From NCBI RefSeq assembly GCF_039349365.1, contig NZ_CP134977.1, forward strand, positions 1 through 64,000: a DNA stretch of 64,000 bases, in the 5' to 3' direction. This DNA comes from Buchnera aphidicola (Shivaphis celti). Lineage in GTDB: Bacteria > Pseudomonadota > Gammaproteobacteria > Enterobacterales > Enterobacteriaceae. Shown here piece after piece: positions 18,425 to 21,435 of this stretch. The first letter of the stretch is position 1. Each line of letters starts with the position of its first letter. The translations under genes were made by a program, and so were the position numbers. The notes under the pieces are model-generated. The model was not told the DNA's origin, ran no database searches, and saw only the letters and a program-made list of their open reading frames with translations.

Positions 18425-19000
18425 ATGATTGTATATTACAGTAGTGACTTTAAGTCTGGATTAAAAGTTTTAATTGATAATCATCCATGCGAAATTCAAA
18501 GAGTAGATTTTGTAAAGCCAGGAAAAGGACAATCGTTCTCTCGAGTCAAGTTAAAAAAATTATTAACTGGTCAATTAATTGAACGAACATTACGATCTAC
18601 AGATAGCTTGTTAAGTGCAGATATTTTTGAAATAAAATATACGTATATTTATCATGATAATATGTTTTGGCATTTTATTCATCAATCTAATTTTGAGCAA
18701 ATAGCGATAGGTAAAAATATTATTCAAGATAAATATAAATGGTTATTAAAAAATAATAGTTATACTATTATTTTATGGAATCAAAATCCGATTGGTGTGG
18801 TAATTAGTCATTTTATTGATTTAAAAGTAGTATCCTTTGTTTCTGATAGTAAAAAAAATATGTCTATGAGTAAAAATAATTTTAAATTATGTATGTTGAA
18901 TACTGGATTAATTTTACAAGTTCCATTATTTATTCAGATTGGAGACATTATTAGAATTGATACACGAAAAGTGGAATATCATTCACGTATTCATCGGTGA
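18425..19000 (+). CDS. efp: Translation elongation factor P
   Basis: EF-P relieves ribosome stalling at polyproline. It has 191 residues (E. coli 188). FVKPGKGQSFSRVKLKKLLTG places the modifiable lysine at Lys34, exactly as in E. coli. Domain II keeps WHFIHQSNFEQ and domain III ends VPLFIQIGDIIRIDTRKVEY. The ribosome binding site is weak. The last 10 bases overlap the 3' end of the convergent dnaC gene. The modifying enzymes (EpmA/EpmB) are not in this window. Confidence 0.96.
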   Translation: MIVYYSSDFKSGLKVLIDNHPCEIQRVDFVKPGKGQSFSRVKLKKLLTGQLIERTLRSTDSLLSADIFEIKYTYIYHDNMFWHFIHQSNFEQIAIGKNIIQDKYKWLLKNNSYTIILWNQNPIGVVISHFIDLKVVSFVSDSKKNMSMSKNNFKLCMLNTGLILQVPLFIQIGDIIRIDTRKVEYHSRIHR

Positions 19001-19728
19001 TTTTTTATTTTGTAACGATAACTTTCCCAGTAAAAATTTATCCATAAGCTATTACCTAATTTCATTCGATCCATAATTCTTATACCAAGTATTTTTTGAA
19101 TTTGTATTATATTACAATTAGAGAGCATTCCTGTAGATTTTTTTGATGAAGATCTTTTATCAATAATTTGATCTAATATAATTTTTTCATAGAGAGATTC
19201 TTGTTGTATTCCAATTTCATCAATTATTAGTAAGTCAATTTTACTTAAATAATTTATAAATTTTTCTGTTGTAAATTGTTTATTTAAATTATGAAAAGTA
19301 GATTTAATTTTTGACATCAGGTCAGAAATTGTAATGATTAATACTGTTTTTTTTTTGGATATTAAATATTTGCTTATTGCAGTAGCTAAATGATTTTTCC
19401 CAGTCCCCGGTTTTCCTAAAAAAATAAAATTTCCAATATTTTTATGAAAATTTATTGCATAATTTTGTGTTAATGTAATTGCTTTTTTATGTCCTTCATG
19501 TTCGATATGATAGTTTTGAAATGAACAATCTTTATATAATTCTTGAATTCCTGATTTAATTAAAATATTTTTATTTTTTTTTTTTTGACTTTTTTGAATT
19601 ATAGATTTAGAAAATCGCTCTCCTTGCTTTTTATTCCATGACAGCAAGTCAATTTCTTTATAAAATTTCGGTTTAATATGATTGGGAATAATTTTTTTTA
19701 ATTTTTTAAAAAAATCTATCTTTTTCAT
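18991..19728 (-). CDS. dnaC: Replicative helicase loader DnaC
   Basis: DnaC delivers DnaB helicase onto single-stranded DNA at the origin. It has 245 residues, the E. coli length. Walker A GKPGTGKNH starts at 105, Walker B is LLIIDEIG, and RRS-like and arginine-rich blocks (DKRSSSKKSTGMLSNCN, GIRIMDRMKLGNSLWINF) match E. coli. The N-terminal DnaB-binding segment (KKIIPNHIKPKF) is conserved. A helicase loader is kept although the initiator gene dnaA is missing from its normal place in this window. It overlaps efp by 10 bases, tail to tail. Confidence 0.96.
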   Translation of the reverse strand: MKKIDFFKKLKKIIPNHIKPKFYKEIDLLSWNKKQGERFSKSIIQKSQKKKNKNILIKSGIQELYKDCSFQNYHIEHEGHKKAITLTQNYAINFHKNIGNFIFLGKPGTGKNHLATAISKYLISKKKTVLIITISDLMSKIKSTFHNLNKQFTTEKFINYLSKIDLLIIDEIGIQQESLYEKIILDQIIDKRSSSKKSTGMLSNCNIIQIQKILGIRIMDRMKLGNSLWINFYWESYRYKIKNHR

Positions 19729-19779: not shown

Positions 19780-20333
19780 TTAACATGAAGAGTATAATAC
19801 ATAACAAATTTTTTTAGTATTTTTTTTTTTTTTTACAATCCAATTTTTTGGATATTGGATTTCATTATATCGAAAAGTTTCTATATATATATAACCATTT
19901 TTTTTAATAATTTTATTTTTTTTTATTAAAAATATTGTTTTTTGTAAAATATTTTTATAATATGGTGGATCAAGAAAAATAATATCATATTGTATTTTAG
20001 ATATTTTTTTTAACCAATGTAAGGTATCTATATTTATAATAGTAATATTTTGAATATTTAATCTTTGAATATTATTTTTTATATTATGAAATATTTTTTT
20101 ATTTTTTTCGATCAGTGTTACATGTTTAGCATGTCTAGAAATCGCTTCAATACCTAATGCTCCACTACCAGCAAAGCAATCTAAACAATTTTTCTCTTGA
20201 ATTTTATTTTCTAACCAATGAAATAAGGTTTCTCGAATTTGATTTTTTGTAGGTCGTAAATTTTTATGATTAATAGTATTAATAATATTTCCTTTTAAAA
20301 TACCACTAATAATTCTAATTTTTTTTTTTTCAT
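19780..20333 (-). CDS. rsmD: 16S rRNA (guanine966-N2)-methyltransferase, start out of frame at A12
   Basis: RsmD methylates G966 of 16S rRNA. Read from codon ATT at 20319 to the TAA at 19780, the minus strand has an uninterrupted frame beginning IRIISGILKGN. It contains the SAM-binding DCFAGSGALGIEAISRHA and the catalytic FLDPPYYKN (E. coli DPPF). The only sensible start, ATG at 20333, is followed by exactly 12 A residues (20319–20330). That puts the ATG out of frame, and the ATG frame stops after 12 codons. Ten or thirteen A's would restore a protein of about 184 aa (E. coli 198). No ATG, GTG or TTG occurs in the correct frame upstream, where a TAA lies at 20335–20337. A second run, A15 (19820–19834), is in frame near the C-terminus. 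The rest shows no decay, so I read it as an active gene rescued by slippage, or a very recent lesion. Confidence 0.85.
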
Positions 20334-20511: not shown

Positions 20512-21435
20512 ATGAATTTTTTTAAAAAAATAAAAAAAAGTTTTATTAATAGAAAAAATGATTTTGGTTCTGTAATTCGAAATTTATTTTTTAAAAATCA
20601 GATTAATGATGATTTTTTTGTTAAATTGGAAGAAAAGTTATTGGTTTTTGATTTTGGGTTTCATACAACTCAAAAAATTGTAGAAAGTTTATTGGTAAAA
20701 TATAAACAAAATAGATTCTTAAAAGAAATAGATGTATATTTGGAACTTAAAAAATACCTTTTGCATATATTATCTATAAATAAAAAGAATAGTTTTAATA
20801 ATATTAAAAATAATTTGAACACCTTACAAACAATATTATTTGTTGGGGTGAATGGAGTAGGAAAAACTACTTCTGCGGTCAAACTAGCAAGGTTGTATAT
20901 ACAAATGGGAAAGAAAGTTTTATTATCAGCAAGTGATACTTTTCGGTTTGCTGCTATTGAACAATTACAATTTTGGGGGAAAAAAAATTCTATTCCAGTT
21001 TTTGCAAAAAAAATTGGTTTTGATTCATCTGCTGTAATTTTTGATTCTATTGATTTTGCTAAAAAGAATTGTTTTGATATTTTAATAATTGATACAGCAG
21101 GTAGATTACATAATAAAGTTAATTTAATGGAAGAGTTAAAAAAAAATATTCGTGTTATAAATAATAAAAATTCTGGTTCTATTAATGATATATATCTTGT
21201 TTTAGATATGTGTAGTGGTCAAAACACTATTTTACAAACAAAATTATTTTCGGAAAAACTTATAAATATTACTGGAATTATATTAACTAAATTAGATGGT
21301 ACTGCAAAAGGAGGTGTGATATTTCCTATTTTGGAAAAATTTCTAATTCCTATTCAATATATCAGTCATGGTGAACATATAGATGATTTTTCAGTGTTTA
21401 ATGAAAAAAAATTTATTGATAATATGTTTGCGTAA
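20512..21435 (+). CDS. ftsY: Signal recognition particle receptor FtsY (NG domain only)
   Basis: FtsY receives SRP–ribosome complexes at the inner membrane. It has 307 residues against 497 in E. coli: the acidic N-terminal A domain is absent and the protein is essentially the NG GTPase. G1 GVNGVGKTT is at 112–120. ASDTFRFAAIEQL, DTAGRLHN and TKLDGTAKGG are all present, and the C-terminal GEHIDDFSVFN matches the family. The first residues (MNFFKKIKKSF) form a short basic amphipathic stretch that may serve in membrane contact. It lies between rsmD (divergent) and rpoH, as in E. coli apart from the lost ftsEX. Confidence 0.97.
   Translation: MNFFKKIKKSFINRKNDFGSVIRNLFFKNQINDDFFVKLEEKLLVFDFGFHTTQKIVESLLVKYKQNRFLKEIDVYLELKKYLLHILSINKKNSFNNIKNNLNTLQTILFVGVNGVGKTTSAVKLARLYIQMGKKVLLSASDTFRFAAIEQLQFWGKKNSIPVFAKKIGFDSSAVIFDSIDFAKKNCFDILIIDTAGRLHNKVNLMEELKKNIRVINNKNSGSINDIYLVLDMCSGQNTILQTKLFSEKLINITGIILTKLDGTAKGGVIFPILEKFLIPIQYISHGEHIDDFSVFNEKKFIDNMFA

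Follow-up and report, generated by a model that had tools for sequence, protein, structure and literature searches.

The window analysed here comprises the first 64,000 nucleotides of the single contig (422,485 bases) of Buchnera aphidicola (Shivaphis celti), hereafter G000, and contains on its reverse strand a reading frame for RsmD that lacks a canonical start codon. As delimited by the open reading frame and by family profiles, the intact frame extends from ATT 20319 to its TAA stop (19780..20319) and is flanked by the divergent ftsY on the forward strand (20512..21435; PF00448, PF02881) and, downstream, by a gene for an IstB/AAA ATPase on the reverse strand (18991..19728; PF01695), which we take to be DnaC-like. 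It stays open for 184 codons between the TAA at 20337-20335 and the TAA at 19782-19780, 179 of which follow from ATT 20319, and no ATG, GTG or TTG is found in this frame, either among the 179 codons or in the stretch that separates the upstream stop from ATT 20319. The ATG at 20331..20333, near the place where the genus-mates of G000 have their in-frame rsmD ATG, is the start of an out-of-frame leader: It is followed by a run of 12 A's (20319..20330, reverse strand) that constitutes the frame break and leaves the ATG one base short of the RsmD frame, or two bases long, and its own frame ends with a TAA after 12 codons (20295..20333, reverse strand). Three further elements lie on the same strand: the AUU codon at 20317..20319, which is in the RsmD frame and might serve as a non-AUG start; a predicted 15-bp hairpin 7 nt behind the A-run (20277..20311, arms 20311-20297 and 20291-20277), whose folding is not significant; and an A15 run near the 3′ end of the gene (19820..19834), which is in frame and represents a second slip-prone site that the initial annotation did not mention. 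The anatomy described in that annotation was borne out: The ATG followed by A12 and a stop after 12 amino acids, the roughly 180 open codons in another frame from ATT 20319 and the lack of an in-frame ATG, GTG or TTG upstream are all present, and its statement that 10 or 13 A's would restore the frame follows from simple arithmetic.

The identification as RsmD, made initially from the SAM-site and DPPY motifs, is supported by family profiles and by structural relatives. The protein scores 159.1 bits against TIGR00095 (cut-off 117.5) and 183 bits against PF03602 (cut-off 24), with the latter profile being covered from its position 1 at codon ATT 20319; against the narrower NF008157 it reaches 168.7, which is under the cut-off of 302. 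Its best solved relatives are 2IFT and 2FPO/YhhF. The motifs LDCFAGSGALG and LDPPYY, presumably the SAM-site and the DPPY motif, are both present, and the D, P and P of the latter are invariant in all 11 genomes of the genus that were compared. The substrate nucleotide is present as well: The 16S rRNA pattern around G966-C967, in the numbering that we assume for it, has one match in G000, with 1 mismatch elsewhere in the pattern.

For comparison within the genus we used ten genus-mates of 412-453 kb (G001-G010), whose relationships to G000 were derived from 40 proteins (FastTree, 19,175 columns, unrooted) as ((G006,(G008,(G005,(G004,G009)))),(G010,(G001,(G002,G003))),(G007,G000)). rsmD is kept in 11 of 11 genomes and begins with an in-frame ATG in ten of the ten genus-mates, among them G001, in which the ATG is followed by an A10 run that is in frame. 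From 149 family genomes, 20 further small-genome rsmD genes were picked as a sample outside the genus; 18 of these have an in-frame ATG and two have only GTG or TTG, and a canonical start is missing in G000 alone among the 31 rsmD genes. The frame break of rsmD is confined to one of the 11 genomes and is not maintained across species; such maintenance, a feature of some published slippage cases, would strengthen the slippage reading without being necessary for it. Such a distribution would be expected of a young pseudogene, in which the run length changed recently on the G000 branch, no useful RsmD is made and erosion has not begun, and the recent lesion entertained as an alternative by the initial annotation is compatible with it; because the nearest sister RsmD is only 65% identical, the lesion is not datable. 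The same reading is favoured by the dispensability of the gene: E. coli manages without RsmD under usual growth (excerpts of PMC7056703 and PMC10117853), four of the 149 family genomes have no rsmD match at all and two more have none over the cut-off, and in G028, a genome outside the genus, rsmD is cut internally at an A11 run, one base short, its halves being otherwise intact (G028:C1:23200-24600). However, retention in all 11 genomes argues against a pseudogene, and so does the state of the gene itself: At the 56 residues that are invariant in the other ten species G000 shows one departure, the lowest value in the genus (1-6 in the other species), whereas an unconstrained gene with 0.04 substitutions per site would show at most one departure with a probability of 0.03 (simple Poisson). 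Moreover, Nei–Gojobori estimates for G000 rsmD give a dN of 0.26-0.32 versus a dS of 0.59-0.96. The rest of the gene, which had been called perfect, is in this sense free of decay, and judged by its sequence G000 rsmD is either in use or was lost very recently. Taken together with a similar break that is borne by metG, a gene the cell needs, we regard the pseudogene explanation as unlikely.

In the 164 kb of G000 covered by scans across the genus, corresponding to 39% of the genome, the 122 conserved ORFs contain 132 A-runs of at least nine, 23 of them of at least 12, and the frame is broken at an A-run only in rsmD and metG. These counts bear on an error of sequencing or assembly, according to which the true run at rsmD would consist of 10 or 13 A's. 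Sequencing is commonly least reliable in homopolymers, and G000 is represented by a single assembly; further records of its species were found neither among 6 contig matches nor in viral contigs (0), collections from which near records may be absent. Yet so many long runs are in frame in the same assembly, including the A15 run inside rsmD itself, and the metG break recurs as A10 in eight separate assemblies, so that we consider an error at rsmD rather improbable.

metG is represented in each of the 11 genomes by a single match over the metG cut-off, which has no internal stop, and the G000 gene scores 651.5 bits as methionine--tRNA ligase. Its start in G000 (G000:C1:77569-77589) consists of an ATG, three codons and an A10 run and is one base short. 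The gene is out of frame at A10 in eight of the 11 genomes (G000, G001, G002, G003, G005, G006, G008 and G010), and in all eight the ATG nearest to the domain precedes it by 17 or 20 nt, is invariably one base off and is followed by A10. An in-frame ATG, GTG or TTG is lacking upstream of seven of the eight cut genes, and G005 has an in-frame ATG 21 codons ahead. The ATG is in frame directly ahead of the gene in G004, G007 and G009, and outside the genus an in-frame ATG precedes the domain by 12-27 nt in 16 of the 16 genes read. Not until codon 18 of the domain does G000 have another in-frame start. It lies immediately past the HIGH-like signature, and annotating the gene from this ATG would drop the signature; internal starts that weaken the argument are a GTG at codon 2 in G006 and an ATG at codon 13 in G002. 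The simplest history on the tree would be one early break, with the frame regained in G007 and in the line of G004 and G009. Aminoacyl-tRNA synthetases are indispensable. Because the cell needs MetG, it very probably decodes metG through the A-run, which would mean that slippage at such starts works in this organism, and the break in eight of 11 genomes suggests that slippage decoding has served a core gene for a large part of the evolution of the genus. We judge rsmD to be expressed likewise. The pairwise scan of G000 against G001 detected rsmD and missed metG, because both reference ORFs of the latter begin at an internal codon.

We extended the search to roughly 160 kb per genome in all 11 genomes and tested 1,339 gene instances; the 1,337 conserved ORFs contain 1,158 A-runs of nine or more. 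Many rows of the resulting tables have a single supporting genome or reflect differences in start sites or gene ends, and only those were used in which an A-run at the break coincides with homology in two frames or with the lack of an in-frame start. Breaks without a long run were dropped before counting (for example at 41.4 kb in G002 and at 41.8, 109.3 and 141.9 kb in G007), as were gene ends near A-runs that differ only in C-terminal length, infC in G004 and G010 with its AUU start, and a locus at 63.8 kb in G006, in which A9 and A10 runs lie close to a missing N-terminus. Six otherwise intact genes cut at A10-A13 were found in this way: rsmD and metG as described, ung, rsmI, tsaD and ribE. 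ung is cut near its 5′ end, one base short, in the sister species G001 (A11; 145353-146004), G002 (A11; near 147095-147746) and G003 (A10; near 149327-149978); rsmI, a 16S rRNA methyltransferase gene, is cut at A11 in the sisters G004 (~60.9 kb) and G009 (~60.3 kb); and in G005 tsaD is cut at A13 and ribE at A12, near 50.9 kb and 86.2 kb, both one base short. NCBIfam served to check the names rsmI, tsaD, ribE and ung, for which intact proteins of sister species were used; the name metG was checked on G000 itself. For ung in G003 and for ribE the frames were partly read by eye, with the ung offsets confirmed afterwards, and the ribE break has two-frame support from two query genomes only and start-loss support from ten.

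All six breaks in the genus, as well as that of rsmD in G028, are one base short of the frame modulo 3. With equal odds for the two offsets and shared breaks counted once, the one-sided probability of such uniformity is 0.016 with six cases and 0.008 with seven. This uniform offset is suggestive: It fits a rescue by one-base addition or by −1 ribosomal shifting, and a deletion bias in replication would look alike. In this respect the odd start of rsmD becomes a testable rule, namely that the intact genes found cut by an A-run in the genus are all one base short.

The sole row with the opposite offset in the two-frame homology table is an A8 run at 111.0 kb in G007, which we rejected as a slippage case, given also its 55-aa gap. 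At ~109.3 and 111.0 kb of this genome two adjoining genes, which we take to be carB and carA, are broken away from long A-runs and look like true decay. Nearly all of the apparent internal stops in the 12 rows of the pairwise scan that were read by eye proved to lie outside true starts or ends; only the ung break of G001 did not. Separately, the thrS gene of G000 (G000:C1:84518-85858) lacks about 190-240 N-terminal residues compared with G001, with a similar picture in G002, G003 and G005; a tRNA_SAD domain at a thrS-like place was found only in G006-G009 among the 11 genomes, and the editing part of thrS has likely been lost.

Within the G000 genome, 27 sites consist of an ATG followed by A9 or longer. 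By ORF reading, 12 of these serve as gene starts and keep the run (A9-A16) in frame, and rsmD is the sole start stranded out of frame. Another of these arrangements was seen at G000:C1:358182-358193, ahead of a gene that is presumably rpsE: Here an upstream ATG with an A13 run is out of frame and an in-frame ATG stands directly behind the run, which is perhaps the healed version of an rsmD-type lesion.

On the combined evidence we consider it probable that rsmD of G000 is a working gene for a 16S rRNA m2G966 methyltransferase, the frame of which is one base off at A12 and rescued by slippage. Ribosomes would start at ATG 20333 and enter the RsmD frame when the A12 run slips, and there are two conceivable routes to this: Either RNA polymerase adds one A in part of the transcripts, or the ribosome steps back by one base (−1) on the A-run. 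Both would lead to the same product, Met followed by about four Lys and IRIISG, which resembles the N-terminus found in the sister species, and unslipped messages would end in the 12-aa dead end. That slippage makes RsmD is the best explanation of the data, and the machine responsible and the yield would be matters of inference. Buchnera RNA polymerase is described as producing mostly single-base insertions in A/T runs, more commonly in longer ones (PMC5574713, excerpt), and in the ATG frame the A12 run offers the ribosome a slippery A_AAA_AAA site with RsmD in the −1 frame. The proposal of the initial annotation that RsmD is expressed from slipped transcripts is supported indirectly, by metG, as far as slippage is concerned; the transcriptional and the ribosomal route are indistinguishable here, and the −1 shift as well as the AUU start had been overlooked. 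That only a minority of transcripts slips was an assumption, and published efficiencies are high: In endosymbionts, 12-50% of transcripts are corrected according to a review (PMC5009743, in part), and E. coli reporters showed 10, 40 and 63% −1 shifting on A7, A9 and A11, respectively (PMC3711429, in part). Against slippage it must be said that, according to excerpts of their work, Traverse and Ochman did not see a restored frame in Buchnera, and that some of the slipped messages would be lost again at the A15 run in rsmD. As to a stimulating structure for the ribosomal route, the hairpin has z values of −1.89 (80 nt, 11 of 200 shuffles as stable) and −1.39 (110 nt, 19 of 200), and no comparable stem is predicted in the ten genus-mates. 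A stimulating hairpin as a general feature found no support: Five of the eight metG leaders were folded, with z values from −1.25 to +0.19 and no consistent structure.

A start without slippage would be conceivable if RsmD began at AUU 20319 behind the A-run and ATG 20333 were a relic. The infC gene is read with an ATT start in ten and an ATA start in one of the 11 genomes, an assignment that we make by likeness to E. coli IF3, position 1 of the PF03602 profile falls on the very codon in question, and in E. coli that lacks RsmB or RsmD a mutant initiator tRNA achieves more initiation (PMC7949028, excerpt). However, the infC ATT in G000 is preceded by the Shine–Dalgarno-like sequence aaaggag and rsmD has no such sequence, and the element that the metG genes share is an ATG whose phase is wrong in the same way throughout, with no near-cognate codon in common. 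Initiation at AUU 20319 is in our estimation quite improbable, and slippage from ATG 20333 is preferred.

Annotation would miss rsmD or call it a pseudogene. The suggestion of the initial annotation that slippage might set a low dose is a conjecture. A bolder reading is that near-start A-runs are a maintained gate on the translation genes metG, rsmD, rsmI and tsaD, with slip efficiency setting the yield, and that RsmD may regulate itself; we regard this as very doubtful. infC and prfB control their own synthesis. For RsmD, the feedback would consist in too little enzyme loosening initiation or framing, whereby more RsmD would arise from A12 or from AUU 20319. m2G966 and m5C967 are stated in a review to prevent frameshifting (PMC7949028, excerpt). 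As m2G966 is located at the P site and reportedly promotes correct initiation, low RsmD would raise its own synthesis. Reportedly, in the work on m2G966 and m5C967 cited by that review, G966 methylation by itself had no direct effect.

The rescue of frameshifts by slippage is already known in endosymbionts: Tamas et al. (2008) and Wernegreen et al. (2010) reportedly described poly(A) frameshifts in Buchnera and Blochmannia that are rescued by transcriptional slippage. Eight genes with poly(A) frameshifts of this type are given for B. vafer (PMC3017870, excerpt) and four to eight per genome for Blochmannia (PMC4389277, excerpt); in the literature open to full-text search, which lies outside most subscription journals, no rsmD or metG frameshift in Buchnera was found. 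The G000 genes resemble these cases in that an intact gene of an AT-rich endosymbiont is broken once, at a long A-run, without decay, and, as in some published endosymbiont cases, the breaks of metG, ung and rsmI are common to several species. They differ in the position of the cut in rsmD and metG, which immediately follows the start codon and deprives the gene of an in-frame start, and in that metG encodes a single-copy aminoacyl-tRNA synthetase; the present cases are read from the DNA sequence. With programmed −1 frameshifting of the dnaX type, or of the magnesium chelatase type with A7-A11 runs (PMC3711429, in part), rsmD shares the slippery A-run, the −1 frame and a predicted hairpin, whereas its site lies in codons 2-5, its hairpin is not significant and absent in sisters, and its break is not conserved. 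Finally, infC, which encodes IF3 and reads as starting at AUU, indicates that a non-AUG start is used in the genus and that AUU 20319 could serve as one, but in contrast to infC, rsmD has neither a Shine–Dalgarno-like sequence nor a start that is conserved across the genus.
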